This document shows positions 1,428 through 17,860 of a DNA stretch of 26,803 nucleotides, one piece after another; position 1 is the first letter of the stretch; the number at the start of each line of letters is the position of its first letter. The stretch lies in the IMG/VR virus record IMGVR_UViG_3300045921_000066, positions 1-26,803 of that record. One strand, written 5' to 3'. Made by a program: the position numbers and the translations under genes. This stretch comes from a virus. The notes below the pieces were generated by a model, which worked only from the letters and a program-made list of their open reading frames with translations, was not told where the DNA came from and ran no database searches.

Positions 1428-1456
1428 ATAGTACGCAATGCGTTGCGAAATTTCAA
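1428..1456 (-). promoter_or_regulatory. Possible sigma70-like promoter for the terminase operon
   Basis: On the minus strand TTGAAA (1456-1451) is separated by 17 bases from TACTAT (1433-1428). Transcription would begin near 1421, on or next to the ATG of the small terminase, so the message would be almost leaderless. The spacer contains a small inverted repeat (CGCAA/TTGCG). The -10 match is only partial. Confidence 0.3.
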
Positions 1457-1506
1457 GAGGCAGGAGGTAAACAGCAAAGGGCCGGGTGCCTTGGTCCGCA
1501 TGGGGG

Positions 1507-1665
1507 TAGGCTAGAAGTGACGTGGATGAAGTGATTAGGGGCTAGAAGCTGGAGGCTAGAGGTTACGTGAGTGTAGTAATTGAGGGCTAGAAGCTGGAGG
1601 CTAAAGGTTACGTGGGTGTAGTAATTAAGTACTAAAGGTCGCGTGGATGGGGTTGTGGAGGATGT
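1507..1665. repeat. Degenerate 45-bp tandem repeat
   Basis: Two clear 45-base copies begin with GCTAGAAGCTGGAGGCTA at 1541 and 1586 and differ at few positions. Partial, more diverged copies flank them at about 1507-1540 and 1631-1665. Open frames across this stretch are repetitive and lack start signals, so it is treated as non-coding. Confidence 0.75.
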
Positions 1666-1748
1666 GGGAGTTATAGGGGTGCGGGTTGTTGGACGGCGCC
1701 CCGGCACTCCTCATGGTCCGCATAGGGGGCCGCCACCTAGTAGCCGTC

Positions 1749-1790
1749 AGCTCACCACCAGCTCACCACCAGCTCACCACCAGCTCACAC
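1749..1790. repeat. 11-bp tandem repeat (AGCTCACCACC)
   Basis: Three perfect copies of AGCTCACCACC at 1749-1781 are followed by a shortened fourth copy (AGCTCACAC). It lies in the gene-free stretch between the terminase genes and the GC-rich minus-strand gene. Confidence 0.85.
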
Positions 1791-1881
1791 ACTGCGCAAC
1801 ACAAATCAGGAAACCGACTAGCTGCAATCCATGCGTGCAATAGAATGCGTGGTCCATGTTACATGTAACAAACGCGAGGCA

Positions 1882-1907
1882 ATAAAAAACGCGGACAATG
1901 CCGCGTT
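1882..1907 (-). terminator. Second (backup) rho-independent terminator, minus strand
   Basis: The stem AACGCGG/CCGCGTT (1888-1894 with 1901-1907) has a 6-base loop. Read on the minus strand it is followed by a T-rich run (from the A-tract at 1882-1889). It lies about 60 bases beyond the stronger terminator. Confidence 0.5.
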
Positions 1908-1967
1908 ATCAAATCATGCAATCAAGTTCTGTGGCAATGTAATAGTGCATTAGTACAAAAAGGCAGC

Positions 1968-2000
1968 AAAAAGGCTAGGGCTCCATTCGGAGCCCTAGCC
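1968..2000 (-). terminator. Rho-independent terminator, minus strand
   Basis: A perfect 12-bp stem with a 4-base loop (GGCTAGGGCTCC, loop ATTC, GGAGCCCTAGCC at 1973-2000) is preceded on the plus strand by AAAAA. On the minus strand it reads as a strong hairpin followed by a U-run. It sits 28 bases past the stop codon of the minus-strand gene at 2029. Confidence 0.85.
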
Positions 2001-2028
2001 TATGGCGGAAAGCGCGTCCGTGGGCGCG

Positions 2029-2436
2029 CTAGGCCGTCTTACGGGGGCGCCCCGGGCCGCGCTTGAGCGTCCACGGACGCGCAATGCGCCTGTCATCCTT
2101 GGCAACCGACTGCGGCGGCTCCGGAATATCGCCACCACGGAGCAGGTACAGCGCGACCGCTGCGCAAGCCTTGTCAGCGCGCGCGGCCTTTTGGGGGTTC
2201 AACAAGCCACGCCCAGTGGGCCAGACTTCCGGATACCCGTCGGCGTCGGGCGCCGCGGCTACCTTGATGGCAACCCGGAACAGGTCACCATTGTCCAACG
2301 CGGCCCATTCCTTCATCCGAGCACCAGCCCAGAAAGAAAAGACATCGCCCTGCGCGCTAGCGTCTTTCAAGACGTTAGCGTTGACGAGTGCGGACAGGTT
2401 CGCAGCAAGGCGCGCTTTCGTGAGTTTCGCATTCAT
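2029..2436 (-). CDS. GC-rich hypothetical protein with AT-hook-like C-terminus (moron-like)
   Basis: A 135-residue protein of unknown function. The start at 2436 is preferred over an upstream in-frame ATG at 2502 because AAGGAG stands 9 bases before it. The body is alanine-rich and probably helical. The C-terminus is basic and ends KRGPGRPRKTA, an AT-hook-like core (GRPRK), so DNA binding is possible but untested. The gene is far more GC-rich than its surroundings, has a near-consensus sigma70 promoter just upstream and two terminators just downstream, and stands alone. These are the marks of a moron: an independently expressed, recently acquired gene. Two open frames on the opposite strand over the same bases lack start signals and are taken as shadows of GC-rich coding sequence. 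Confidence 0.75.
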   Translation of the reverse strand: MNAKLTKARLAANLSALVNANVLKDASAQGDVFSFWAGARMKEWAALDNGDLFRVAIKVAAAPDADGYPEVWPTGRGLLNPQKAARADKACAAVALYLLRGGDIPEPPQSVAKDDRRIARPWTLKRGPGRPRKTA

Positions 2437-2490
2437 GTCTCGTGACTCCTTGAATGCCCCGGATCGGAAGTGATCCAGCCAGCGAAGCGA

Positions 2491-2518
2491 ACTATAGCGC
2501 AACCCTGCAGACCGTCAA
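2491..2518 (-). promoter_or_regulatory. Sigma70-type promoter for the GC-rich gene
   Basis: On the minus strand TTGACG (2518-2513), a 16-base spacer and TATAGT (2496-2491) form a near-consensus promoter. Its transcript would lead straight to the AAGGAG and ATG at 2436. An imperfect palindrome GGATC..GATCC (2461-2476) lies just after the start point and could be an operator or a 5' hairpin. Confidence 0.75.
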
Positions 2519-2696
2519 CCCTTCGATCAACCTTCGTTTAGGTTTCGTTCAGGAAACCTCGCGCCTAGCACATAAAACCTGAACAAGCGCTGAATATCCG
2601 AAGTCCTGGTGCAGCAGCGTTTAGCCGCCGTTCAGGTTGCATTTATCGCTTATCCGTCATCGCACTATGCGATTTAGAGCCCTATATTCGGAGTTT

Positions 2697-2756
2697 AAGC
2701 GAGACTATACGGCGAAATTAGCCCATATGAGTATTGAAGCGAGACTATACGGCGAA
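2697..2756. repeat. Pair of 20-bp direct repeats
   Basis: AAGCGAGACTATACGGCGAA occurs at 2697-2716 and again, perfectly, at 2737-2756 (period 40 bases). The spacing of close to four helical turns would place both copies on the same DNA face. They could be operators or phage-specific promoters. I did not find another full copy in the window. Confidence 0.85.
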
Positions 2757-3024
2757 GCCGCGAAATGAATGCGGAAATCTTCCGTAAAATCAGTTTCTCT
2801 ATTATCAAACTTAACGCGAGCCAACAGCGTCAGCGCTTGCTCCACCCTAGGCATCGTTGTAACATTTATGTCTGTGACGGATTGTTACTTCGTTATGGTT
2901 ACACTCTGTACCGAAGTGAGTGAGCAGGGACGCGGGCTACAGCTGTAATGTAATACAAACTGTAATAGTTTCGGAATTCAGCTTATATTCAGGTTCTTTT
3001 AGAAACACCTATTCCCCACACCCC

Positions 3025-3048
3025 TATATATATATATATATATATATA
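3025..3048. repeat. (TA)12 dinucleotide run
   Basis: Twenty-four bases of uninterrupted TA repeats in the divergent region. Such a run melts easily and can extrude a cruciform. Confidence 0.95.
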
Positions 3049-3282
3049 CTAAAGATATTACAACCCTATAGTTATTACAGCCTCTCGTGGGCTCTCTCAC
3101 GAGCCCCTCCCGAACACCTGCACGTAACTGAATCCTCTCTGACTCCATATTATTACACTCTCTCCTAGGCCACTCCTAGTGCTGATGCGCTCTCCAAAGC
3201 GACCTGAACGCCCGTTCAGCTGGCTTATCTCTCCATTTACACGCAACTATTTACATATCGTAACTTAACGCACAAAAACAAA

Positions 3283-3311
3283 ATACACGCGCGCGCGTGC
3301 ACACGCGCACG
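3283..3311. repeat. Alternating purine-pyrimidine (Z-DNA-prone) tract
   Basis: Twenty-nine bases strictly alternate purine and pyrimidine, mostly CG and CA/TG steps. This composition favours left-handed DNA under negative supercoiling. It immediately precedes a 9-bp hairpin (ACGCCAGCC, loop TTC, 3312-3332). Confidence 0.85.
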
Positions 3312-3399
3312 ACGCCAGCCTTCGGCTGGCGTTCAGCTTCCGTTCAGAAACCTCGTGCGATGCTTCTCGCCGCGGACCGCCCCGCATATAAAAACCGAT

Positions 3400-3429
3400 G
3401 CCCATTGGCGGCAATGGGCTTACAAGGAG
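3400..3429 (+). promoter_or_regulatory. 5' leader hairpin and strong ribosome binding site
   Basis: An 8-bp perfect hairpin (GCCCATTG, loop GCGG, CAATGGGC, 3400-3419) is followed by AAGGAG (3424-3429), 8 bases before the GTG at 3438. The hairpin may protect the 5' end of the early message or modulate its translation. Confidence 0.5.
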
Positions 3430-3437
3430 TAGCAAAA

Positions 3438-3491
3438 GTGGACACATACGAAATCTTCACGTTCTTCACCTACAGCAAGGAGCACGAATGA
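3438..3491 (+). CDS. 17-residue leader peptide
   Basis: GTG at 3438 follows AAGGAG at ideal distance and opens a 17-codon frame (starts MDTYEIFTFF, ends KEHE). Its TGA overlaps the ATG of the next gene (ATGA), so translation of the kinase-like gene should be coupled to it. The Phe/Thr/Tyr-rich peptide has no recognised function. It may be a translated leader that delivers ribosomes to the next start rather than a working protein. Calling it real rests on the ribosome binding site and the overlap. Confidence 0.5.
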   Translation: MDTYEIFTFFTYSKEHE

Positions 3492-3832
3492 AAACTCTGG
3501 TCCTTCTTCGTGGGCTTCCCGGTTCTGGGAAGACCACGCTTGCTCAAACCCTCTGTAAGCCCAACGCAAGTTAGGCTTTCTTTGAGGCCGATAGCTATTT
3601 CGGCATCGGCCCTTTCTACAGGTTTGACCCCAAGAAGCTCCCTGATGTAGTTTTTGTAACGAATACTTCCTCCACCGAGGAGGAAGTCGAAGTCTATCGG
3701 CGCATTGCCGATGAAGTGGGAGCGACCTTTGTGTCGCTCATTGTCGAAAATCGGCACGGAAACAAATCCGTGCATGGTGTGCCGGAGCGTACGATTGAGC
3801 GTATGCTTCGGCGATTTTCTGTCAAACTCTAA
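3488..3832 (+). pseudogene. Polynucleotide kinase-like P-loop protein interrupted by an in-frame TAG
   Basis: The frame starts ATG (3488) and encodes LLRGLPGSGKTTLAQTL (Walker A at about residues 9-17), then meets TAG at codon 29 (3572-3574). The same frame then runs without another stop to TAA at 3830-3832. It contains FEADSYF, a NTSSTEEE strand, YRRIADEVGA and HGVPERTIERM, in the order seen in T4 PseT-like 5' kinases (AAA_33-type). Total length is 115 codons including the stop, short for the family. The intact downstream half argues for a very recent nonsense mutation, amber readthrough or a sequencing error. No tRNA with anticodon CTA is in the window, and TAG is the normal stop of other genes here, so genome-wide recoding is unlikely. 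If active it would phosphorylate 5' ends of nucleic acid, perhaps for repair together with the phage ligase. Confidence 0.75.
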
Positions 3833-3841
3833 GGAGGTCAC

Positions 3842-4012
3842 ATGAGCGTCTACTACACTGACAACGGATACGAAAACCGCGAGGATTACTTGCGGTCTTT
3901 GGCCGAAGATTTTGGCATTGACGAATCGATTGTTTTTGCAGTGGCCGATTTGCTTGGTCCTAATGAGGACTTCGACGGACTCATTACCATGTTGGAGGAT
4001 TACTATGGTTGA
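3842..4012 (+). CDS. Small acidic hypothetical protein (56 aa)
   Basis: AAGGAGG, just after the stop of the kinase-like gene, precedes ATG at 3842 with good spacing. The product starts MSVYYTDNGYENREDY and is strongly acidic, probably helical, with no recognised domain. Its TGA overlaps the next start (ATGGTTGA), so the two are translationally coupled. The function is unknown. Small acidic early phage proteins often bind and redirect host enzymes, but nothing here shows a target. Confidence 0.65.
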   Translation: MSVYYTDNGYENREDYLRSLAEDFGIDESIVFAVADLLGPNEDFDGLITMLEDYYG

Positions 4013-4124
4013 TAGTATCCTCCTTTTCATTTTAGAAGCGGCAAGAGCCCTTTGGGCTCTTGCCGATGTCATTTTCGTTTTGAGCATCCTGATTTGGATG
4101 CTTTTCAACCTAGAGGAGTGGTAA
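4005..4124 (+). CDS. Small single-span membrane protein (39 aa)
   Basis: The ATG at 4005 follows GGAGG (3994-3998) and overlaps the end of the preceding gene. An in-frame upstream start at 3912 would be buried in that gene and is rejected. The 39-residue product is almost wholly hydrophobic: two hydrophobic stretches (SILLFILEAARALWALA and VIFVLSILIWMLF) end in an acidic NLEEW tail, fitting one or two inner-membrane helices. The first stretch is encoded by a perfect 12-bp hairpin with a TTT loop (4039-4065). Function is unknown; membrane-active early microproteins (superinfection exclusion, lysis control) are possibilities only. Confidence 0.65.
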   Translation: MVDSILLFILEAARALWALADVIFVLSILIWMLFNLEEW

Positions 4125-4322
4125 ATGAACCGCGTTATTAACTATGTCATTGTTCCGTCCAAAGGAATGCAGGTATTAGGAACCTATCTTTCGCTTAACG
4201 AAGCGAGAGACGCGGCCAAGAAACTGGCCGCGCTTGAAGCGGCTGATGAAAACTCATACTATGTGTATGAGTTAAAGGCACGGTTTATGTGCCAAAAAAC
4301 CGTAAAGGAGGCGCTTAGATGA
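4125..4322 (+). CDS. Hypothetical protein (65 aa)
   Basis: The ATG at 4125 follows directly on the TAA of the membrane microprotein, with GAGGAG upstream. The 65-residue product has a probable beta-strand start (VINYVIVPS), an amphipathic alanine/lysine helix (ARDAAKKLAALEAA) and a basic C-terminus. I do not recognise the family. The TGA overlaps the next ATG by four bases, so it belongs to the same coupled array. Two perfect inverted repeats lie within it (4211-4232, 8 bp; 4251-4273, 9 bp). Confidence 0.7.
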   Translation: MNRVINYVIVPSKGMQVLGTYLSLNEARDAAKKLAALEAADENSYYVYELKARFMCQKTVKEALR

Positions 4323-4675
4323 AGACTTCATACCGCGACGCTGTTACGTGTTTTGTTATGGGGCGCCCTTATAAGGGAGCTTCCGCGTGCCATTCTGGCG
4401 GCGCAACGTTGTTTTCTTACAGTACTGCTATTGCAGTACGATGTAATGACGGCTTGTTCGTAATAAATACCACGCAATACAGTAGAACAACCAGCAAGCA
4501 CCAGAACAAGGCGACTGCGGCTATACGCAATCATAGCCCTGAACTCATAATCGAAGTAGATAATATTCCTAGAGGCGCGGATCGTGGTGATTTGCTTATA
4601 GCGGCGCGGACAAAAGTCCGCAAAATAAACGACCCGCATTTGGATACAAATGCGGTTCTGAAAGACCTCTGGTAA
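4319..4675 (+). CDS. Conserved phage protein of unknown function (118 aa)
   Basis: AAGGAGG 8 bases before the ATG at 4319 supports this start. The product has a central pattern GGATLFSYSTAIAVR, then LFVINTTQYSRTTSKHQNKA. This resembles a widespread family of small phage proteins with a 'leave DG..LySYgt.IA / SrTTskH' signature, possibly DUF8033-like, of no known function. The match is from memory and not checked. The C-terminal third is basic and ends in AVLKDLW. Perfect inverted repeats lie at 4422-4439 and 4634-4655. Several phages carry this family among their early genes. Confidence 0.7.
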   Translation: MKTSYRDAVTCFVMGRPYKGASACHSGGATLFSYSTAIAVRCNDGLFVINTTQYSRTTSKHQNKATAAIRNHSPELIIEVDNIPRGADRGDLLIAARTKVRKINDPHLDTNAVLKDLW

Positions 4676-4680
4676 TCACC

Positions 4681-4794
4681 GTGTTATTCTTAGACATTCT
4701 GGACGCACTGAAGTACGGTGCGTCCGTGTCAGACTACAGGGCAACGCTTCTGTCAGACGGTAAAACCGTCTACAATACCAACATAAGAAAATAA
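4681..4794 (+). CDS. Possible microprotein (37 aa)
   Basis: A GTG-initiated frame starts 5 bases after the stop of the preceding gene and encodes 37 residues (MLFLDILDALKYGASVSDYR and onwards, ending NTNIRK). There is no strong ribosome binding site, so it would rely on re-initiation. Two perfect hairpins lie within it (4701-4725, 8 bp; 4755-4771, 7 bp). No known family. It could instead be a structured untranslated spacer. Confidence 0.35.
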   Translation: MLFLDILDALKYGASVSDYRATLLSDGKTVYNTNIRK

Positions 4795-4884
4795 AACGCC
4801 CACTGTTGGGTGGTCTAAAAGACTGCGAAGTAGGGTACTATACTTCGCTTATAGTAAAATGCCCGGTGAAAAATAGGAGGTGTC

Positions 4885-4944
4885 ATGTTGCGCTTAGATG
4901 TTGAATACGCGGCGTCGTTCACGGTCGGTTCAGCCGAGCCGTGA
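4885..4944 (+). CDS. Possible 19-residue peptide with strong ribosome binding site
   Basis: AGGAGGTG just before the ATG at 4885 is one of the best ribosome binding sites in the window, yet the frame closes with TGA after 19 codons (MLRLDVEYAASFTVGSAEP). Either it is a genuine peptide or leader, or the remains of a longer gene. An 8-bp hairpin (4825-4848) precedes it. Confidence 0.35.
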   Translation: MLRLDVEYAASFTVGSAEP

Positions 4945-4991
4945 GAGCATGCCGTCGTGATCGGTCCTCACAACTTTCAAGGAGAAACGAC

Positions 4992-5096
4992 ATGGTGGTT
5001 TCTGTGGTTATTTACAATATTGAAGAAGCAGCCGACAGGCTGTCAGACCTTTATGGGTACTGCATCTATTCGTTCAACTACGTGATTCGGAGGTAA
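4992..5096 (+). CDS. Hypothetical microprotein (34 aa)
   Basis: CAAGGAG 7 bases before the ATG at 4992 supports translation of a 34-residue protein (MVVSVVIYNIEEAADRLSDL and onwards, ending NYVIRR). It has a short hydrophobic start, an acidic helix and an aromatic end. Its last codons contain the CGGAGG that serves as ribosome binding site for the AAA ATPase at 5101, so the two are tightly linked. No function is recognised. Confidence 0.55.
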   Translation: MVVSVVIYNIEEAADRLSDLYGYCIYSFNYVIRR

Positions 5097-5100
5097 AGCC

Positions 5101-6165
5101 GTGCTTTCAGACATCACTGGTGTGAGTGTTTTGACTGACCGCATTATGACTGCGGTCAATGCACGCAAGTCTCTGATTATTCAGGGACCGAACGGTGTGG
5201 GTAAGACCAGTGCCGTTCATCAGGTGGCTCGCAAACTGAGTCGGCATGTCGAAGTGTTTCTCGGCCCTTCGATTCATCCGGAGACTTTCGGCATGAACGT
5301 GCCGAATAGAGACTTCGATTCGTTTCGATACGTGTGGTCAGAACGCTTCGTCAGTGTTCCCGAGAATACGATCTTTCTGATTGACGAGTTTTCGTTCATG
5401 CCTCCGACAGTGCAAGCGCTGTTGGGCGAGGCGGTACTTTCACACAGCATTCAAGGCCGACCGTTGCCTCATGGCACGGTATTCATTCTGACTGCAAACC
5501 GACTTGGTGATACGGCAGGCGTCAACGCCATTAGCCGGCTCATCAACACTCGATGCCCAACGGTCACATACTATGGTCCGACTGACGAGGAGTTCGTCGG
5601 TTCGGATAAAATGCCGGGATATTTGGCCACGCATGGCCATCCGGCGATCAATACTGCTTTGCAGTATAATCCCGGACTCATTCACTTTCTTAAGGGAGAA
5701 TATCCCAAGCAGGAACAGACAGCTGATAAACTGCCTACTCATCGTGGATGGGTGGAATGCAGTGCAGAACTTCGCGCTGCCGAAGAACTTTACAATGACG
5801 GCGCTATTTCGTCGATTAATCGACTGGCGATTCTTGCCAGTCACGTCGGCGACAAAGCCGCCGCAAAGTGTGAAGTCATCGTGAGACTCTGGCAAGACCT
5901 GCCGGACTTTAATAAGATGACTTCACAAAAACTTGGCACTATGGAAGTGCCGAAAAATCCGGTTGTTCGCAGTCTGATTATTAGTCAGGTTGCGGATGTT
6001 GCCAAGGAAGGCTTAATCGCTCACCTTGACCCGCTGATTTCTCGGTTTCCTGCCGAGGAACAAAAGGTTATGTGGGTTCGACTGCTGGAGAAGTCCTCAC
6101 ACTTTGCTAGCACAAGTGCGTACCAGAAGTTTTCTTCTGGTACAGGTAAGTTCCTTAACTCTTAA
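5101..6165 (+). CDS. MoxR-type AAA+ ATPase
   Basis: A GTG start at 5101 is preceded by GGAGG. The 354-residue protein has a Walker A motif GPNGVGKT (29-36), Walker B FLIDEF (92-97), sensor-1 FILTANR (128-134) and arginine-finger candidates in ISRLINTR (144-151). This is the core of MoxR/RavA-like AAA+ ATPases, which remodel proteins or insert metal cofactors together with a VWA partner. Exactly such a partner, a metallopeptidase-VWA protein, lies one gene downstream (6576). The pair probably works as an ATP-driven chaperone or protease-like system on an unknown phage or host target. The C-terminal half is helical without further motifs. The gene is notably dense in short perfect inverted repeats (for example 5137-5157, 5287-5306, 5651-5667, 5822-5842, 6121-6142). 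Confidence 0.85.
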   Translation: MLSDITGVSVLTDRIMTAVNARKSLIIQGPNGVGKTSAVHQVARKLSRHVEVFLGPSIHPETFGMNVPNRDFDSFRYVWSERFVSVPENTIFLIDEFSFMPPTVQALLGEAVLSHSIQGRPLPHGTVFILTANRLGDTAGVNAISRLINTRCPTVTYYGPTDEEFVGSDKMPGYLATHGHPAINTALQYNPGLIHFLKGEYPKQEQTADKLPTHRGWVECSAELRAAEELYNDGAISSINRLAILASHVGDKAAAKCEVIVRLWQDLPDFNKMTSQKLGTMEVPKNPVVRSLIISQVADVAKEGLIAHLDPLISRFPAEEQKVMWVRLLEKSSHFASTSAYQKFSSGTGKFLNS

Positions 6166-6179
6166 TAGGAGAAACAGCA

Positions 6180-6515
6180 ATGCTGAATCTTGCAAACATT
6201 CAGACTTCGGACACTCTTGAAAGCCTCGATCTCGGCGATCCGACTATCGGAGAATCGATTTGGATTTACACTGATCGGTTCTTCTATATCGGCCGCTTTC
6301 GTGGTCGCTCCAAGGATGGAGAGTTCTGGGTTCTCGATCGCGCTTCCATGGTCATTCAAATGGGTGTCGTAACTGACGCCATGGTGGATGGCAACAAGGC
6401 GCTGCACGAAGTTCACCCGTTCGCGACTCCGTTTGTCGCGATTCGGTATAGCTCGGTTGTTGGATGGCATTACTACAGCCACCCGCTGCCCGAAAAGGCG
6501 ATCACCAAGGGCTAA
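6180..6515 (+). CDS. Hypothetical protein between the AAA ATPase and VWA genes (111 aa)
   Basis: TAGGAGAAAC before the ATG at 6180 supports this start. The 111-residue product looks like a small beta-rich fold: SIWIYTDRFFYIGRFRGRSK and EFWVLDRASMVIQ are alternating strands. This resembles small SH3- or Sm-like barrels, but I recognise no family. Its position between the ATPase and its likely VWA partner, with a 14-base gap to the former, suggests it may be an adaptor or substrate of that pair. It is followed directly by a terminator, so it is probably co-expressed with the ATPase more than with the VWA gene. Confidence 0.65.
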   Translation: MLNLANIQTSDTLESLDLGDPTIGESIWIYTDRFFYIGRFRGRSKDGEFWVLDRASMVIQMGVVTDAMVDGNKALHEVHPFATPFVAIRYSSVVGWHYYSHPLPEKAITKG

Positions 6516-6524
6516 TGTTGCAAG

Positions 6525-6563
6525 GCACGGAGCGGCTACATAGCCGCTCCGTGCTCACTTTTT
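6525..6563 (+). terminator. Rho-independent terminator between ATPase and VWA genes
   Basis: A perfect stem of 13-14 bp (GCACGGAGCGGCTA with TAGCCGCTCCGTGC, 6525-6554) is followed by TCACTTTTTC. It lies in the 60-base gap between the 6180 and 6576 genes, so it would reduce transcription into the VWA gene. Confidence 0.85.
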
Positions 6564-6575
6564 CAAGGGGTCAAC

Positions 6576-7703
6576 ATGTTCGGACCATTTACACGAGCCC
6601 TATTTGAGATTCTCAATCGCAATCCGATTATTTACGGATTTGTAAAGATTCTTCCGATTGAGTTCTCGAACGACGTTCCTCCTGCTGCGGCAGCAAGTAC
6701 GGACGGGCGCAGGATTAAGATCAATCCGGATGTATGGAACACGCTCGATATTGCTTCGCAAGCCTTTGTGCTGGCACATGAAGCCATGCACTTGGCATGG
6801 GATTTCTTTGGTCGCGTTCAAGGACGCGACGTTCACAAGTTCAACATTGCGCAAGATCTTGTGATTAATGAGTTTCTGCGTGACAATGGATTTAACTGTA
6901 GAGCCCTTAGCCGCTCGATTACCGCTAGGACTTTTCCCAAGATGAGGTTTGATCCCCAATCTTGGACGAGTGAACGAGTCTATCAGTGGCTTGTCGATAA
7001 CCCTGACAAGTGCCCTTTGCCCGGGCAAAATATACTTGACGGTTGTGGACAACCGTCAGCAGAAAAGCCGCTGACTTCCGAAGAAATTCAAGAACTTCGG
7101 CTAGCAATTCAGTCGGTGCTTGTTGGAGCACCTGCTGGCAGTTTGCCGGGCGAGATCCGAACACTTGTCGAATCCGCTTGGGTGCCGCCGCATGACTGGC
7201 GGTCCGACCTGTCGCGGTACTTCAACACGCTCGTTCAGGATGACTACAGCCTGAAACGGTACAGTGTGCAGGGGCTTGCCGTTCGCGGTGTCATCGGCCC
7301 AACGCTGCACAGTCCGGGACTCGACACACTCGGCGTCATCATCGATACTAGCGGGTCCATGTCAAGTATCTATGACGAAGTGCTGAGCCATCTGCAAGAT
7401 ATTCTGACGCAGGTTGGTGTTCGCAAAGTAATCAGAATCGACGCCGATGCGAGAGTGACACATGAGGAAGAAGTGGAATCTTCTGCACTGCTTGAGCGCG
7501 GTGTGGAGTTTCATGGAAACGGTGGAACAGATTTTCGAGAAGCCATTGACGCTATGGAGAAATATAACCCTAGCGTTGTGGTTTATATCACTGATGGTGA
7601 GGGAGGGTTTCCGTCAAGTCCTCCAACGTATCCGCTAGTTTGGGCGGACGTGTCTGGGCATAGTAGCTACCCCTTCGGCGACGTTGTGCGCTGTAAGGAG
7701 TGA
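6576..7703 (+). CDS. Metallopeptidase-like + VWA domain protein (MoxR partner)
   Basis: A 375-residue protein with two parts. The N-terminal domain carries HEAMH (68-72), an HExxH zinc motif, followed by FNIAQDLVINEF (89-100), whose Asn/Asp residues are typical of the DUF2201 putative metallopeptidase family. The C-terminal VWA-like domain has the MIDAS sequence IDTSGSMS (256-263), GGTDF (316-320) and ITDGEG (338-343), all needed for metal binding. The partner ATPase is upstream (5101). In cells such pairs (RavA-ViaA, MoxR-VWA) act in complex maturation and membrane stress. In phages their job is unknown. The start follows AAGGGG 7 bases before the ATG. Inverted repeats occur at 7016-7029 and 7037-7058. 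Proteolytic activity is only inferred. Confidence 0.85.
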   Translation: MFGPFTRALFEILNRNPIIYGFVKILPIEFSNDVPPAAAASTDGRRIKINPDVWNTLDIASQAFVLAHEAMHLAWDFFGRVQGRDVHKFNIAQDLVINEFLRDNGFNCRALSRSITARTFPKMRFDPQSWTSERVYQWLVDNPDKCPLPGQNILDGCGQPSAEKPLTSEEIQELRLAIQSVLVGAPAGSLPGEIRTLVESAWVPPHDWRSDLSRYFNTLVQDDYSLKRYSVQGLAVRGVIGPTLHSPGLDTLGVIIDTSGSMSSIYDEVLSHLQDILTQVGVRKVIRIDADARVTHEEEVESSALLERGVEFHGNGGTDFREAIDAMEKYNPSVVVYITDGEGGFPSSPPTYPLVWADVSGHSSYPFGDVVRCKE

Positions 7704-7705
7704 GT

Positions 7706-7939
7706 ATGTACTTCGGTGGTGGAAGTGAGTTCACTTTATTCCGTAAAGACGATGCGCGTGTATTACGTTTTTTCGCTCATCGAACTCGTGTAAGAAAATC
7801 TTACACATTGCCAAAGGTAAATAATAAAGTGATACTTTCTGCTATCATAGTAAAGATAGGCCCCGCACAAGTTAATTCACTAAATTCCATCACTATGATT
7901 AACGCCTCGATTTATAGCCTAGTTCATAGGGGCCTATAG
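7706..7939 (+). CDS. Possible small basic protein ending inside a tRNA gene (77 aa)
   Basis: AAGGAG, spanning the stop region of the VWA gene, lies 5 bases before ATG 7706; an in-frame GTG at 7700 is less likely. The basic product (starts MYFGGGSEFTLFRKDDARVL) has no known family. Its TAG is bases 8-10 of the CAT-anticodon tRNA, so mature tRNA and full-length message cannot come from the same transcript. It also runs through a promoter-like site and a 7-bp hairpin (7788-7806). The second half may therefore be untranslated leader and the reading frame accidental. Confidence 0.35.
   Translation: MYFGGGSEFTLFRKDDARVLRFFAHRTRVRKSYTLPKVNNKVILSAIIVKIGPAQVNSLNSITMINASIYSLVHRGL
7808..7836 (+). promoter_or_regulatory. 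Possible sigma70-like promoter for the tRNA cluster
   Basis: TTGCCA (7808-7813), a 17-base spacer and GATACT (7831-7836) precede the first tRNA by about 90 bases. The -35 matches 5 of 6 and the -10 matches 4 of 6 consensus bases. Confidence 0.35.
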
Positions 7940-8006
7940 CTCAAGAGGTTAGAGCAGCCGCCTCATAAGCGGTTGGTTCTCGGTTCAAATCCGAGTAGGC
8001 CCACCA
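7930..8006 (+). tRNA. tRNA with CAT anticodon (Ile2 or Met)
   Basis: A complete cloverleaf of 77 bases including encoded CCA: acceptor GGGCCTA/TAGGCCC, anticodon stem GCCGC/GCGGT, loop CTCATAA, T-arm with GGTTCAAATCC. Anticodon CAT can be elongator Met, or Ile2 (reading AUA) after lysidine modification. The sequence around the variable loop (GGTTGGT..GGTTCAAATCC) looks more like bacterial Ile2, which would also fit the other rare-codon tRNAs here. Confidence 0.92.
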
Positions 8007-8021
8007 TAGTAAGGATTAATA

Positions 8022-8507
8022 ATGAACATTTTCATGCTTGACGAAACTCCAAATAAAGCGGCGCTTTATCATTGTGATAAGCACGTGCCGAAAATGATTC
8101 TCGAATCCGCGCAGTTACTCTCGACTGCGCATCGGTTGCTGAATGGAAGCGATCAAGTCTACAAGGCTGCGTATGTCAATCACCCATGTGCGATATGGGT
8201 GAGACAGTGTTCCGAAAACTACGAGTGGACGTATTATCTATTCATAGAACTTAATAAACAGTTTGTTAATAGGTTTGGTGGCAAAGACCACGCTTCATAC
8301 GCAAAACTTTCTGATATACTGTCAGTGCCACCACTAAATTTACCAAAAGGTTCGATGACTGATCCGGCACTTGCAATGCCGGACATTTACAAGATTCCAC
8401 AAAAGCCTGTGGAATCCTACAGAAATTACTATAAGCAAGCTAAGACGTTTGCTACTTGGGACAGAATTTGTAAAGGCTGGACTCCAGATTGGTGGAACGA
8501 TTTTTGA
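8022..8507 (+). CDS. Conserved phage protein of unknown function (YHCDKH family, 161 aa)
   Basis: The ATG at 8022 follows AAGGA. The 161-residue protein opens with NIFMLDETPNKAALYHCDKH, then MILESAQLLSTAHR, NHPCAIWVRQ, AMPDIYK and YRNYYKQAKTFATW. I recall this pattern from a conserved family in many large phages, with no established activity as far as I know. The invariant-looking His, Cys, Asp, Glu and Trp residues suggest an enzyme or a metal site. Its TGA overlaps the first two bases of tRNA-Lys, so it is embedded in the tRNA cluster. It is better conserved in appearance than the other small frames nearby and is certainly a gene. Confidence 0.8.
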   Translation: MNIFMLDETPNKAALYHCDKHVPKMILESAQLLSTAHRLLNGSDQVYKAAYVNHPCAIWVRQCSENYEWTYYLFIELNKQFVNRFGGKDHASYAKLSDILSVPPLNLPKGSMTDPALAMPDIYKIPQKPVESYRNYYKQAKTFATWDRICKGWTPDWWNDF

Positions 8508-8580
8508 GACCGTAGCTCAACGGTAGAGCAGTGGACTTTTAATCCATTGGTTGCGAGTTCGACTCTCGCCGGTCTCACCA
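8506..8580 (+). tRNA. tRNA-Lys (TTT)
   Basis: 75 bases with encoded CCA. Acceptor GAGACCG/CGGTCTC, anticodon stem GTGGA/TCCAT, loop CTTTTAA, T-arm GCGAG/CTCGC. The anticodon TTT reads AAA/AAG. Its first two bases are shared with the stop codon of the upstream gene. Confidence 0.95.
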
Positions 8581-8581
8581 C

Positions 8582-8911
8582 AGGTGTGATATGATTCGTA
8601 AATACTCACAGTCTCGAATTGTGTCAAAAGGACGCATATTTGATAACTTGTTTTTACATCAAATTAGGCGTGCTGGAATTCTTTTAGCGAGTGTCAGTTA
8701 CTTAAGCCCTGACAAAAATAAGCGTGATTATGTAGTAAAATGCAACGTAAATAGGAAAACTTTCACTGGCGTAGAGAACGAATTTTAATATAAACTGAGT
8801 GATGTATGCACCACAGAGTCGTAGAGCCAGAATGGACATATTCACTGTCTGAAATATGCGTCCTTTTGACACAATCCGAGACTGTGAGTATTTACGAATC
8901 ATATCACACCT
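8582..8911. repeat. 60-bp near-perfect inverted repeat with 210-bp spacer
   Basis: Bases 8582-8641 recur as the reverse complement of 8852-8911 with a single mismatch. Each arm contains AGGTGTGAT followed by ATG and 17 codons with the same product (MIRKYSQSRIVSKGRIF), pointing inward. The right arm lies inside another plus-strand frame (8806). It could be an invertible segment, a miniature element or the product of template switching. Confidence 0.9.
8591..8788 (+). CDS. Possible small protein starting in the inverted repeat (65 aa)
   Basis: The ATG at 8591 follows AGGTG by 4 bases, right after tRNA-Lys. The first 17 residues (MIRKYSQSRIVSKGRIF) lie in the left arm of the inverted repeat. 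The remainder (DNLFLHQIRRAGILLASVSY and onwards) is basic, with no known family. The opposite-strand frame from 8902 starts identically but continues with hydrophobic residues that look like a shadow. Inversion of the spacer would swap these C-termini. Coding status is uncertain. Confidence 0.4.
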   Translation: MIRKYSQSRIVSKGRIFDNLFLHQIRRAGILLASVSYLSPDKNKRDYVVKCNVNRKTFTGVENEF

Positions 8912-9099
8912 TTAGATGGTTTTGGTCAGCATCATTACGCTATTTTAAACATTTTGAACGTTCTACAATTTCCTTACAAATCTGGTGCCCAAAGCTAAGA
9001 GTATATACTCCATTCAAAGCCTTTGAAACTTGCATTGTATCTGAACCTACTACAAAACTTAAAGACTACATAGGCACTCTCGGCATTAAAGTTTTATGA
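8806..9099 (+). CDS. Possible small protein, paralogue of the next frame (97 aa)
   Basis: The frame starts MHHRVVEPEWTYSLSE and ends KLKDYIGTLGIKVL. The frame just downstream begins MMYYRAVEPDGTLAVSD and ends CKEYVSITGVSFVPL, so the two look like diverged tandem copies. The right arm of the 60-bp inverted repeat lies in the N-terminal third, where the two copies do not align, suggesting the arm was inserted into this copy. The ribosome binding site is weak. Function is unknown. Confidence 0.45.
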   Translation: MHHRVVEPEWTYSLSEICVLLTQSETVSIYESYHTFRWFWSASLRYFKHFERSTISLQIWCPKLRVYTPFKAFETCIVSEPTTKLKDYIGTLGIKVL

Positions 9100-9332
9100 T
9101 GTACTATAGAGCTGTGGAGCCTGACGGAACCTTAGCAGTTAGTGATTGTAAATCACTTTGGCAGTCAGTTTTGGCTCAGCATACTAGACTCAGAATAGTA
9201 CGACTTTTTTATCGCAGCGACTATGCTGCTACTATGTATGATGAAAGTTTTGTAGGTCGGTTTTCTACGACGTGTTTAAAAGATTGTAAAGAATATGTAA
9301 GCATCACTGGAGTTTCCTTTGTGCCGCTATAG
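9096..9332 (+). CDS. Possible small protein, paralogue of the preceding frame (78 aa)
   Basis: The start ATG overlaps the preceding frame's TGA (ATGATG at 9096). The product shares the opening R-A/V-VEP-D/E and the closing strand pattern with its neighbour. It contains a basic, aromatic middle (RLRIVRLFYRSDYAATMYD). Its TAG is bases 8-10 of tRNA-Arg, as in the frame at 7706. No known family. Confidence 0.45.
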   Translation: MMYYRAVEPDGTLAVSDCKSLWQSVLAQHTRLRIVRLFYRSDYAATMYDESFVGRFSTTCLKDCKEYVSITGVSFVPL

Positions 9333-9399
9333 CTCAATGGGATAGAGCAATGGATTTCTAATCCATTCGTTGTAGGTTTGAATCCTACTAGCGGCGCCA
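9323..9399 (+). tRNA. tRNA-Arg (TCT)
   Basis: 77 bases with encoded CCA. Acceptor GCCGCTA/TAGCGGC, anticodon stem ATGGA/TCCAT, loop TTTCTAA, T-arm GTAGG/CCTAC. Anticodon TCT reads AGA/AGG, rare in most GC-rich bacteria. Confidence 0.95.
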
Positions 9400-9401
9400 G
9401 T

Positions 9402-9486
9402 ACATGCACCGTAAGCGTACTACGGTATCCGCTGCAATGCGGATAACTCCTTGAACCTGAGCCGGCAGGGTGTACGCACCGGCACT
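9402..9486 (+). ncRNA. Candidate structured RNA within the tRNA cluster
   Basis: Between tRNA-Arg and the next frame, about 85 bases hold successive inverted repeats: ACCGTA/TACGGT, TATCCGC/GCGGATA (9427-9446, loop TGCAAT) and GCCGG/CCGGC. GCGTAC and GTACGC could also pair over the middle hairpin. An unpaired ACTCCTT sits between hairpins and resembles an anti-Shine-Dalgarno sequence. It matches no RNA family I know and has no open frame. Function is unknown. Confidence 0.3.
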
Positions 9487-9506
9487 TATTGAATGGAAAT
9501 CACAAA

Positions 9507-9716
9507 ATGAATATCAACATAATGGCTTCTGCGTTTCGTTTAAACGTAACGCAAATAGATGGGGTAGACATGGCATCTATAGGTACCGAGCGTTACTATT
9601 CGTTTATTAGTAACGTGTGCCAAATTTACAACCGCTCATGGATTCTTATAAATAGCGGCCGCTTACACGATATGTCTAGTGTACAATATTTTGAAGGTAG
9701 CGGCCACAAAGAATAA
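9507..9716 (+). CDS. Possible small protein (69 aa)
   Basis: A start at ATG 9507 is preferred to the in-frame TTG at 9489. The ribosome binding site is weak (GGAA). The product starts MNINIMASAFRLNVTQIDGV and contains alternating polar and hydrophobic residues like a small beta-rich fold. It lies between tRNA-Arg and tRNA-Leu and stops just before the latter. No recognised family. Confidence 0.45.
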   Translation: MNINIMASAFRLNVTQIDGVDMASIGTERYYSFISNVCQIYNRSWILINSGRLHDMSSVQYFEGSGHKE

Positions 9717-10942: not shown

Positions 10943-12524
10943 AGGCCGTATATGGATGACAGCCTCGTTATTTCAGTATTTAGAGAGTCGATTCCATATA
11001 AGTCAAATCTTGTCGGTCGAGCAGACCCACAAAGATGCAGTATCGATTCCGTACACTACAAATGCAGTATCGTTCCTCTACAACGCTTTAGGCACTTCGC
11101 CTCAACTATTAGAAGTCTTACCCACCCCATTAAGTTTGTCCGTGACACAAGGTACGTGGACGTACTCGGGGACTCATCCGCCTATGCGTCATCAAAAAGT
11201 TACGTCGGAGTTTATCACCCTGCATGACGACATATTTGTATTTAACGATCCGGGTACAGGTAAGACACGATCCGTAATTTGGGCAATAGACTATCTACAA
11301 AAGTTTTGTAATGTTAAAAAAGTTTTAGTTGCTTGTCCAATATCAGTGCAGCCTGAATGGATGCGAGAGTTTTTTGAAGCGGCTCCGCACATTAGAGTCG
11401 CCAATTTATTTGGCGACAAGAAAAACAAACTCAAAGCATTAGAACTTAATGCTGACGTAGACATCATCAATCACCATGGACTTGCAGTATTAAAAGACAA
11501 ACTGATTGCTAAGCGTTATGACATGCTAGTAATCGACGAAGCAACAAGAAATTTCAAGTCTACTAGAACTAACGTTTACAAAGCAGCCGTTGCGATACGT
11601 AAGTCCAAACCTATGCGTACAGTCATTATGACTGGTACGCCTATGGCAAACAGCTTAATGGATGCGTATCCTTTGTTACATATGCTGTATCCTACGTTAT
11701 CCGTTGCGCGTAACAAGGATGCGTTTCAAAACACTTTCATGTACAAACAAGGCCCATTTAAATGGGTACCAAAGCAAGGTGCATTAGAACGAGTTAAAGA
11801 GTTTTTGCGTCCAGTGGTGCGCTTTGCAGCCGAAGATTGTATAGACTTACCTGAACTTGTGTATGTTAATCGTCATGCTGAACTAACTAAAGAACAACGA
11901 GTGTATTTCAATGAAATGAAAGACTCGTTTGAAATGCACCATCCAGACGGACAGGTGCGAGCTATAACGTCCGCAACTAAAGCAACGAAATTGTTACAAA
12001 TCTTGGCGGGCGCGGTAAAGAAGTCTGACCAGTCCGGCGAGGCCATCACTATACTTCCTGAACCTCGATTAAACGTAGTGCTTGACATTCTGGAAGGAAC
12101 GCAAGGGCAGGTGTTGATCTTCTCACCGTTCCTTGCTACGATACCCTTACTGCTACAAGCCTTGCATGGCGCAGGCTACGAGGCGAAAGCAGTGTACGGA
12201 GCAACAAGTGCCGGAGAGAGGGCTACGACGTTCCAAGAGTTTCGGCAAGGACGCTACAAGGCGCTGGTCTGCCATCCTGATGTTGCAAGTCATGGGTTGA
12301 CATTAGTTAACGCAAAGGCTACTGTGTGGTACAGTCCGGTCTACAATCAAGAGACATACGCACAAGCAAACAAGCGTATGCACCGCAAGGGACAAGTAGA
12401 CCGAACTGTTGTGTATAACATTGGCGCTCATCCGTTGGAGTGGAAAGTCTATGACCTACTGAAAAAGAAAGAAGCCGTTCAACAAGAGTTGTTTAATCTT
12501 TTCCAAAATCACATTGAGGACTAA
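10911..12524 (+). CDS. SNF2-family helicase / DNA translocase
   Basis: A 537-residue superfamily 2 protein. Motif I NDPGTGKT lies at 112-119, motif II DEAT at 209-212, motif III MTGTPMAN at 240-247 and motif VI QANKRMHRKGQ at 485-495. The VLIFSPF and QGRYKALVCHPDVASHG segments belong to the second RecA-like domain. The pattern is that of the short SNF2/SWI2 proteins common in phage replication cassettes. These are thought to move on DNA and remodel replication or recombination intermediates. The VRR-NUC nuclease that often accompanies it is at 16979. The start at 10911 lies inside the preceding gene; Met-8 (10932) is an alternative. The upstream ribosome binding site is poor. Confidence 0.88.
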   Translation: MNNPTLPMYIEGRIWMTASLFQYLESRFHISQILSVEQTHKDAVSIPYTTNAVSFLYNALGTSPQLLEVLPTPLSLSVTQGTWTYSGTHPPMRHQKVTSEFITLHDDIFVFNDPGTGKTRSVIWAIDYLQKFCNVKKVLVACPISVQPEWMREFFEAAPHIRVANLFGDKKNKLKALELNADVDIINHHGLAVLKDKLIAKRYDMLVIDEATRNFKSTRTNVYKAAVAIRKSKPMRTVIMTGTPMANSLMDAYPLLHMLYPTLSVARNKDAFQNTFMYKQGPFKWVPKQGALERVKEFLRPVVRFAAEDCIDLPELVYVNRHAELTKEQRVYFNEMKDSFEMHHPDGQVRAITSATKATKLLQILAGAVKKSDQSGEAITILPEPRLNVVLDILEGTQGQVLIFSPFLATIPLLLQALHGAGYEAKAVYGATSAGERATTFQEFRQGRYKALVCHPDVASHGLTLVNAKATVWYSPVYNQETYAQANKRMHRKGQVDRTVVYNIGAHPLEWKVYDLLKKKEAVQQELFNLFQNHIED

Positions 12525-14221: not shown

Positions 14222-16037
14222 CTTTGAAACCTACTATGATGATACGTACTCTCTTAAAAACTTAACTACGCAGGAATACGTTTACAGCGATTCTTTCAAA
14301 ATTCATGGAGTAGGAATTGCACTACTTGATTGTTTGAACGATGCTCCAATCGAGCCTGCATATATTCCATGGACTTGTTCTGACGATTTCTTTAAAGTAA
14401 TCGGTGAACTTACAGCAAACTATCCGCTTGTAGTAGTTTGTCATAACACGCTGTTTGACGGAACAATTCTAGCAAAACTAGGAATACGTCCGGAGTTATT
14501 TGTTGATACTGCGGCCATGTCACGAGCCGTATTGGGCAATCTTTTAAAGTCGCATTCACTTAATTCAGTTGCTGAATACTTGTTTGGTGAGTCCAAGACT
14601 GATGGACTTGTGCATACTAAAGGCATGCGTGAGTTACCATCGGACTTGCATACTAAACTTGCGGAGTATTGTTGTAAAGACGTAGAACTTACGGCAAGAA
14701 TTACAAGAGAACTATACAAGTTCATGCCACAGACTGAGTTTATTGTGTCTGATCTAGTTACTAGAATGGCTACAGAACCGGCTCTTGTAATTGACAAAGA
14801 GCTTATCGAAAGCTACTACCAAAGAGTTATAGAACGAAAGAAAACAGCTCTAGTTAGAGCTGGCATAAACGATCCAAAACAGCTACGTAGTAGAGAGGCT
14901 TTTGCAAACGCTTTGCGTTTACTAGGCGTAGAGCCCCCAACTAAGATTTCGCCTACGACTGGCGAAGTAACTTATGCTTTTGCTAAAAACGACGAAGGCT
15001 TAAAAGAGCTAATGAGCCATCCAAATTCGGATGTACAAGCCTTAGTCGCTGCAAAACTCGAAGCATCAAGTACTATCGAAGAAACTCGCGCTGCCAAGTT
15101 TCTTCGTCTAGCCGAACTCGGCCCTTTGAGTATTCCCTATCGGTTCTCCGGCGCTGTACAGACTCACCGTCTGTCGGGCAGTGACGGGCTGAACATGCAG
15201 AATCTGCCGCGTGGCGGCGGCCTACGCGCCGCTTTGCGGGCGCCGAAGGGGTACACACTGGTCGTCTCGGACCTGTCTCAGATCGAGCTACGAGTGACGC
15301 TGGCCATGGCGGGACAGACTGACGCGCTTGAAGTTCTTCGTTCCGGTCAGGATTTGTATATATGGTTTGCAGAAAAAATGTATGGGAGGAAAATTGATCC
15401 AGAAGTCGATGCTGGAAAACGTCAAATTGCTAAATCAGCGGTCCTCGGCTGTGGTTTCGGTATGGGTGCCGCAAGATTCGCGGACTATTGCAAAACGTCG
15501 GGAGTCCACATTACTTCCGAAGATGCGGATGCGATCGTCCAGAATTTCCGCGCAACGTTTAGCCGAGTACCGGTGTTGTGGAAGAATTTGGAACAAATCT
15601 TTTCCGAATTTAAGGCCGGGAAATTTAAATCAATCCCTGTCGAATTTGGCCACGCCGGTTACGGAAACCATTATGGTTTTCGACTTCCGTGTGGTTTGCG
15701 AGTCAAATATCCAAACCTTAGACGGGGAAATAACGGATTGGAATTTGAGTCGTCCGGTGCTAAAGAACATTTGTTCGGCGGTAAGATCGCAGAGAACTTA
15801 GCACAATCGTTAGCACGCAACATACTGTTCGATAAAGTTCTAGACATTGCGAAAGAAGTACCTGCAAAGCTAGTGATGACAACGCATGACGAGCTAGTGT
15901 ATGTTGTAGAAAATTCTGTACTCGATCGAGCAGTTCTTGAGATCGACAGGATTATGAATAGTCCTGTTGAGTGGTGGCCAGACGTTCCTCTGGCGTCGAA
16001 AACTAAGTATGCAATTTACTATGGAGACGTAAAATGA
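14205..16037 (+). CDS. Family A DNA polymerase with 3'-5' exonuclease
   Basis: A 610-residue replicative polymerase of Pol I type without the 5' nuclease. Exonuclease motifs: VDFETY (D6, E8), NTLFD (about 80-84) and YCCKDVEL (about 160-167). Polymerase motif A is SDLSQIELR (355-363), with catalytic D356. Motif B is KRQIAKSAVLGCGFG (405-419). Motif C is HDE (561-563), with the second catalytic Asp. All key residues are present, so it should be active and proofreading. It would copy the genome together with the primase-helicase at 18915. The ATG at 14205 overlaps the preceding gene; the local ribosome binding site is weak, suggesting coupled translation. A GC-rich patch spans about 15100-15320 (finger/motif A region). 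Confidence 0.93.
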   Translation: MWLVVDFETYYDDTYSLKNLTTQEYVYSDSFKIHGVGIALLDCLNDAPIEPAYIPWTCSDDFFKVIGELTANYPLVVVCHNTLFDGTILAKLGIRPELFVDTAAMSRAVLGNLLKSHSLNSVAEYLFGESKTDGLVHTKGMRELPSDLHTKLAEYCCKDVELTARITRELYKFMPQTEFIVSDLVTRMATEPALVIDKELIESYYQRVIERKKTALVRAGINDPKQLRSREAFANALRLLGVEPPTKISPTTGEVTYAFAKNDEGLKELMSHPNSDVQALVAAKLEASSTIEETRAAKFLRLAELGPLSIPYRFSGAVQTHRLSGSDGLNMQNLPRGGGLRAALRAPKGYTLVVSDLSQIELRVTLAMAGQTDALEVLRSGQDLYIWFAEKMYGRKIDPEVDAGKRQIAKSAVLGCGFGMGAARFADYCKTSGVHITSEDADAIVQNFRATFSRVPVLWKNLEQIFSEFKAGKFKSIPVEFGHAGYGNHYGFRLPCGLRVKYPNLRRGNNGLEFESSGAKEHLFGGKIAENLAQSLARNILFDKVLDIAKEVPAKLVMTTHDELVYVVENSVLDRAVLEIDRIMNSPVEWWPDVPLASKTKYAIYYGDVK

Positions 16038-17678: not shown

Positions 17679-17860
17679 TTACTGACCATCGCGCTAAAGT
17701 TAGTAGAATTGAGAACGGATTTTTAGTCGAGCTTGAAGGCAATCAAGTAAGAGGAGATAAGGTATCTTACTATAGAAAAGAAATTTTCTGTAAGAATCTA
17801 GAAAAAGTTAGCGAAGTTCTCGAATCATTCATGCCAAGCGTGGAGGTGGAAAATGAGTGA
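17675..17860 (+). CDS. Small hypothetical protein (61 aa)
   Basis: The ATGA overlap at 17675 couples it to the preceding gene. The 61 residues (MITDHRAKVSRIENGFLVEL and onwards, ending SVEVENE) suggest a small beta-hairpin fold followed by a helix. Its final codons supply GGAGG for the gene at 17853. Function unknown. Confidence 0.65.
   Translation: MITDHRAKVSRIENGFLVELEGNQVRGDKVSYYRKEIFCKNLEKVSEVLESFMPSVEVENE

Follow-up and report, generated by a model that had tools for sequence, protein, structure and literature searches.

Short perfect hairpins crowd the early genes of a tailed phage and probably represent selected mRNA structure

Introduction

In RNA viruses with genome-scale ordered RNA structure, bulk folding is maintained without strict conservation of the positions of individual structures. 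Here, we analyzed a 26.8-kb virus contig from a tailed phage (IMG/VR record IMGVR_UViG_3300045921_000066; this whole stretch of 26,803 nucleotides (nt) is called the window below), in which short perfect inverted repeats are densely packed within the early genes. Bulk folding appears similar to that of the RNA viruses, but the phage has a double-stranded DNA (dsDNA) genome and most of its folding falls within a single transcript region. We consider it probable (about 0.62) that these hairpins represent secondary structure formed locally in the sense messenger RNA (mRNA) of the phage itself and kept by selection at synonymous sites.

Several described systems are relevant to this finding. Across life, coding sequences fold weakly at the start codon and strongly beyond about 30 nt in the profile of local folding energy (delta-LFE), with an extra folding peak at +30–70 in 45% of species (Peeri and Tuller 2020, PMC7063772). 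Similarly, folding in the window exceeds that of synonymous shuffles, is weak at start codons and is strong from about +30 nt. On the other hand, the window contains discrete perfect hairpins of 7–12 bp, mainly in one early region, and its folding is several-fold above that of phages lambda, KPP25 or T7 and is missing from the orthologous genes of a relative. The case behaves as an extreme, localized variant of the known coding-sequence profile. In dsDNA viruses, mRNA structure is reduced at start sites and only weakly strengthened further downstream (PMC3072339), and the initiation regions of the window are likewise kept open.

The closest look-alike is found in the mitochondria of Nematomorpha, whose protein-coding genes contain many perfect inverted repeats that were gained and lost between species (PMC6649704). 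Both features are shared by the window; however, the nematomorph palindromes are long and show no excess of imperfect repeats (PMC6649704), whereas stems in the window are 7–14 bp and those with one G-U pair are in excess. It has also been described that quasipalindrome (template-switch) mutation produces perfect short hairpins at formerly imperfect sites (PMC8794818, PMC8604942). Unlike such products, the window hairpins show a strand-specific tolerance of wobble pairs and no cost to the protein, and divergence of one arm was not general in a comparison with relatives of about 60% nt identity. Finally, repeated palindromic elements and operators share sequence among their copies, as in two of the contigs surveyed below (L012 and L050), whereas the window hairpins do not.

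Excess of perfect hairpins over chance

Hairpins were counted as non-overlapping perfect stems of at least 7 bp with a loop of 1–9 nt. Twenty-two were identified between positions 3400 and 7100, whereas dinucleotide shuffles gave approximately two (about 0.3–0.8 per kb). The original prediction, made by eye from the sequence, had proposed about 17 against about two expected by chance; the expectation and the excess agree with our data, but the number was too low, as five hairpins had been missed. All of the 18 hairpins that it listed in this stretch, and five further to the right, are present and perfectly complementary, although two of them, given as 5137–5157 and 6121–6142, are one pair longer on each side (5136–5158 and 6120–6143). 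They had been placed inside coding sequence, which is correct for most of the hairpins, but those at 3400–3419, 4825–4848 and 6525–6554 are intergenic. Density peaks where the rightward operon begins (seven hairpins in kb 3001–4000 and nine in kb 4001–5000) and drops along the operon. In the whole window, 65 hairpins were observed against about 13 in dinucleotide shuffles (29 against about 3 for stems of at least 8 bp).

The excess was also evident under codon-preserving (synonymous) shuffles, in which both the protein and the codon usage are kept. The early genes contained 16 hairpins versus 2.6 expected for stems of at least 7 bp and 8 versus 0.7 for stems of at least 8 bp, and the remaining genes of the window contained 26 versus 8.2. 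Thus, neither the dinucleotide nor the codon-preserving shuffles proposed as a check on the prediction reproduced the hairpin counts. Enrichment depended on loop length: it was 15–18-fold at loops of 2–4, 6 and 7 nt and 3-fold at loop 0, and was gone beyond about 15 nt. Direct and mirror repeats at short spacing showed no enrichment in the window's strain. When the hairpins were compared with each other, no shared motif was found and they were not copies of one repeat; sorting the stems by codon-phase class revealed no consistent pattern either.

Comparative data came from a near-identical strain of the window phage that carries the same hairpins (L003, 54 kb; coding set G001) and from only two non-identical relatives with an early region. 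The first, G002 (a contig of L004), shares about 60% nt identity with the window in aligned early and replication genes, and the second, G003, is as distant as G002.

Evidence for folding of the sense mRNA

The first line of evidence is the type of mismatch that is tolerated in nearly perfect stems. A sense A-C mismatch is a G-U pair on the opposite strand and hence serves as a mirror-image control. Among stems with one wobble in the G001 and G002 coding sets summed, 71 contained a sense G-U pair versus 23.6 expected under the codon null, and 30 contained A-C versus 18.6 expected. In the hairpin-rich and adjacent regions, 40 G-U and 13 A-C stems were observed, with 7.9 and 7.3, respectively, expected under the dinucleotide null. 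For the leftward late genes, too, the G-U bias was on the strand that is sense for them; therefore, the bias tracks the direction of transcription and not one DNA strand. No sense G-U bias could be observed under the codon null in lambda late genes or T7.

Second, hairpins avoid translation start sites. In the interval −25 to +20 relative to the start codon, hairpin coverage was 0.5% versus 12.5% in G001 (P=0.003) and 0 versus 16.8% in G002 (P=0.04), and in the early genes of the window it climbs at +30–59. Third, the amino-acid identity of codons within hairpin arms (0.59–0.76) was at least that of the remainder of the genes, and the stems therefore appear to be built by synonymous choices. 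Fourth, the preferred loop lengths are those of a strand folded back on itself. In addition, local folding was stronger than in synonymous shuffles of each gene, with z values of −3 to −8 in the early genes of G001 (−2.4 in one small gene). Values of −10 and −9 were found for two G002 genes, which encode an AAA/MoxR-like ATPase and a metallopeptidase with a VWA domain, whereas the ATPase, VWA and 6180-type genes of G003 ranged from +0.7 to −1.8. The folding gain per 40-nt window under the codon null was −1.6 kcal/mol in the hot genes of our contig and −2.0 kcal/mol in those of G002, compared with −0.65 in lambda, −0.3 in KPP25, −0.1 in T7 and −0.2 in the G003 orthologues. Of the three readings put forward with the original prediction (selected mRNA structure, template switching and binding sites), the first is best supported by these data, namely G-U tolerance, start-codon avoidance, lack of amino-acid cost and hairpin-like loops.

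Hairpins in relatives and other phages

The hairpin trait is even more extreme in G002, whose ATPase gene (1,041 nt) contains 12 hairpins versus 1.0 in codon-preserving shuffles and whose VWA gene contains 6 versus 0.5. A second G002 strain, L102, carries the G002 hairpins where the two contigs overlap. In G003, the excess was just two-fold overall, and folding of the ATPase, 6180-type and VWA genes hardly exceeds that of their own shuffles, if at all. Individual hairpins are mostly unshared between the window and G002, and their positions turn over rapidly. Because of this turnover, the selected feature would be bulk RNA folding rather than particular sites, and it is unlikely that the majority of hairpins, mostly not shared with G002, act at fixed positions, for example as binding sites or riboswitches. 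Few differences were found within the hairpin-rich region between the strains of either pair (window/L003 and G002/L102). In addition, a short open reading frame (ORF) for a membrane-protein-like product at G002 15701–15820 has ∼17 positions that differ from L102, although the strains are otherwise 99% identical, which suggests local recombination.

Most of the approximately 100 distantly related loci surveyed had an observed/expected hairpin ratio of 0.4–2. The higher ratios of L012, L050, L047 and their kin stem from a distinct phenomenon: a repeated, mostly intergenic palindrome, CCTAACAATGTTAGG, which is present in L010, L011, L012, L022, L047 and L050, phages related by DNA polymerase, and is probably an operator or promoter element. 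Among named phages, the ratio was 0.31 in T7, 1.5 in lambda, 1.8 in KPP25 and 3.0 in the N4-like Achromobacter phage Axy04. Short perfect hairpins are thus strongly depleted in T7 (L147; 3 versus 13.6 expected in genes under the codon null, and 5 versus 16 overall). In Axy04 (L148), from the Schitoviridae, the same trait occurs in milder form, with a three-fold excess and a sense G-U count of 24 versus 8.5 expected (A-C, 13 versus 9.3).

Alternative explanations

Several observations weigh against folding of the sense mRNA as the selected feature. In the hot genes, sense and antisense folding energies differ little in the window (−1.61 versus −1.39) and not at all in G002 (−1.97 in both), a near equality that arises because most stems are perfect; stems this perfect also leave room for a mutational contribution. 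A noisy comparison of orthologues revealed no significant preference for G-U pairs (109 versus 80 A-C pairs; control ratio, 1.2). Position conservation and covariation of the arms across orthologues, which had been suggested as a check on structure, could be recognized in a few cases (5822–5842 and 11620–11634) but overall did not exceed what sequence identity predicts. In three early aligned genes there was weak one-arm divergence (abs(dL−dR), P=0.03). Furthermore, the early status of the genes and their transcript boundaries are presumed from gene order in the sequence.

The strongest competitor, although rather unlikely in our view, is template-switch (quasipalindrome) mutagenesis, in which one arm serves the polymerase as template for the other, either during replication or in repair associated with transcription, so that imperfect repeats become perfect as functionless by-products. 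Template switching is known to yield perfect hairpins (PMC8794818) and to homogenize inverted repeats in coding sequence (PMC8604942). The very steep excess of perfect stems and the turnover of hairpins between relatives fit such a process, as does the one-arm signal of the early aligned genes, and single cases, with one arm changed and the other kept, do look like its products (for example, G002 17855–17884 against window 6083–6112). However, among 56 hairpins in coding sequence, derived changes were not concentrated in one arm (48 versus 60 in controls), a comparison that is not strong because the relatives are only about 60% identical at the nt level. Template-switch products should also decay in a strand-symmetric manner, which the asymmetry between G-U and A-C contradicts; the amino-acid identity of the arms is not lowered, and avoidance of start codons would require secondary selection. 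The hairpins can be explained without template switching, although it may contribute some perfect stems for selection to act on.

A second possibility is that the hairpins are formed or selected in single-stranded DNA of the + strand, either the displaced non-template strand of heavily transcribed early genes or single-stranded replication intermediates. Perfect stems fold almost equally well on both strands, and DNA also tolerates G-T wobbles. This explanation is nevertheless improbable, since the G-U bias follows the direction of transcription even in the leftward late genes, and start codons are avoided.

Still less likely is that the hairpins represent many separate regulatory sites, such as operators, protein-binding hairpins, RNase III sites or terminators, and this reading has largely been refuted. 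The stems at 6525–6554 and 1972–2001 (the latter leftward) resemble terminators, and the excess in some surveyed phages is indeed due to the repeated palindrome CCTAACAATGTTAGG. However, only these two stems fitted the pattern of an intrinsic terminator well (GC-rich stem and T run at a gene end), and most hairpins are located within genes. The original suggestion of sites for a hairpin-binding protein could not be sustained, as sequences, loops and positions all differ, no common motif or repeat family exists and positions are mostly not conserved in relatives. An Rfam search of the window returned four transfer RNAs (tRNAs) only, and the hairpins match no curated RNA family.

Chance, base composition, or an assembly or amplification artefact can be dismissed, because both shuffle nulls are exceeded, related loci are mostly at ratios of 0.4–2, and near-identical hairpins occur in independently assembled contigs (L003 and L136 for the window strain, L004 and L102 for G002), with no point found in support.

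Hairpins and gene layout of the window

Unless otherwise stated, the features below are on the rightward (+) strand. The leftward terminase genes (2–1421) are separated from the rightward early genes by a largely non-coding region at 1450–3440, unassigned to either strand and presumed to contain the early promoter. In this region, GCGAGACTATACGGCGAA occurs twice as direct copies, 40 nt apart, at 2694–2756. A similar pair is present at about 14900–14960 (oriented) of the distant relative G002, and the pairs are candidates for a conserved element that serves as operator, promoter or origin. Rightward, the gene order is P-loop kinase-like, small ORFs, AAA/MoxR-like ATPase, metallopeptidase-VWA, tRNAs, helicase, DNA polymerase, exonuclease, primase and ligase.

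The densest stretch, with the 22 hairpins, is 3400–7100, and the full hairpin-rich early region (3400–9700) continues through the VWA gene, the gene at 8022 and the tRNA region before it declines. The hairpin GCCCATTG-GCGG lies in the intergenic leader (3400–3419). The P-loop kinase-like gene (AAA_33; 3488–3832) contains hairpins of 9 bp at 3665–3687 and of 7 bp at 3720–3739 (not in the original list) and 3754–3773, as well as an imperfect hairpin of 14 pairs, including sense G-U pairs, at 3780–3813. This gene looks inactivated in the window, because it has an in-frame TAG and has lost a 57-nt segment present in L003 (gene at 1824–2225); the missing segment is in-frame and itself contains an 11–12 bp hairpin. 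An alternative genetic code was considered and rejected: recoding is unnecessary, as the sole in-frame TAG is specific to the window contig. Among the small ORFs, the one at 4005–4124 (39 amino acids) contains hairpins of 12 bp at 4039–4065 and 7 bp at 4083–4102 (newly found); ORF 4125–4322 has stems of 8 bp at 4211–4232 and 9 bp at 4251–4273; ORF 4319–4675 has 7 bp at 4422–4439 and 9 bp at 4634–4655; and ORF 4681–4794 has 8 bp at 4701–4725 and 7 bp at 4755–4771. An intergenic hairpin of 8 bp follows at 4825–4848.

The ATPase gene (5101–6165) carries five perfect hairpins, compared with 12 in its G002 orthologue: 8 bp at 5136–5158, 7 bp at 5287–5306, 5651–5667 and 5822–5842, and 10 bp at 6120–6143, at the end of the gene. 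G002 shares only a few of the hairpins, among them 5822–5842, in which an A-T pair changed to G-C in a compensatory manner. Three further hairpins had been overlooked previously: one of 7 bp at 6421–6441 in ORF 6180–6515, an intergenic stem of 14 bp at 6525–6554, which precedes a T run and is probably an intrinsic terminator, and one of 7 bp at 6811–6830 in the VWA gene (6576–7703). The VWA gene also contains a loopless 7-bp palindrome (7016–7029) and a 10-bp hairpin (7037–7058). It matches PHROG 1314, labelled HNH endonuclease, but its Pfam assignment is metallopeptidase + VWA (DUF2201) and the label looks wrong. The next named gene, at 8022–8507, encodes a phage DNA-binding protein-like product (phrog_624) and has five perfect hairpins versus 0.7 expected.

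Other repeats were observed in the window. A 60-nt inverted repeat, 98% complementary, has copies at 8582–8641 and 8852–8911, 210 nt apart, and spans the start of ORF 8591; it may be a segment that can invert or a leader that was duplicated. At the contig end, 93-nt tandem repeats (26487–26803) lie within a long leftward ORF and are out of register with L003, as if repeat number or copy differed. A search for the host through prophages gave two distant terminase matches only.

Biological implications

Hairpin density is greatest immediately downstream of the non-coding region, in the rightward transcripts that are presumed to be early. Packed in this way, hairpins would hide the single strands of early mRNA from ribonucleases (RNases), from Rho and from annealing to the DNA template; early mRNA would thereby be prolonged or protected, with initiation sites left open. 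We infer, as our best guess, that protection of early mRNA from factors requiring single strands is the function of the folding. Candidate reasons for folding include RNase shielding, blocking of Rho or R-loops, evasion of RNA-targeting defence and pacing of ribosomes. A more specific and doubtful idea is that this phage group armours its early mRNA with packed, rapidly re-evolving hairpins against RNA-level attack by the host (RNA-guided defence, toxins that cleave single-stranded RNA, RNase E or Rho), and that gain or loss of the trait follows the host. If so, the absence of the trait from G003 would be explained.

Selection on mRNA folding within coding sequence is usually statistically faint, whereas here single genes hold a dozen perfect hairpins. 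With the hairpin-poor orthologues in a relative as a natural contrast, one can ask which role mRNA folding plays in a phage and which forces drive it. Our results also suggest that coding DNA can be dense in perfect inverted repeats without these being mutational scars.

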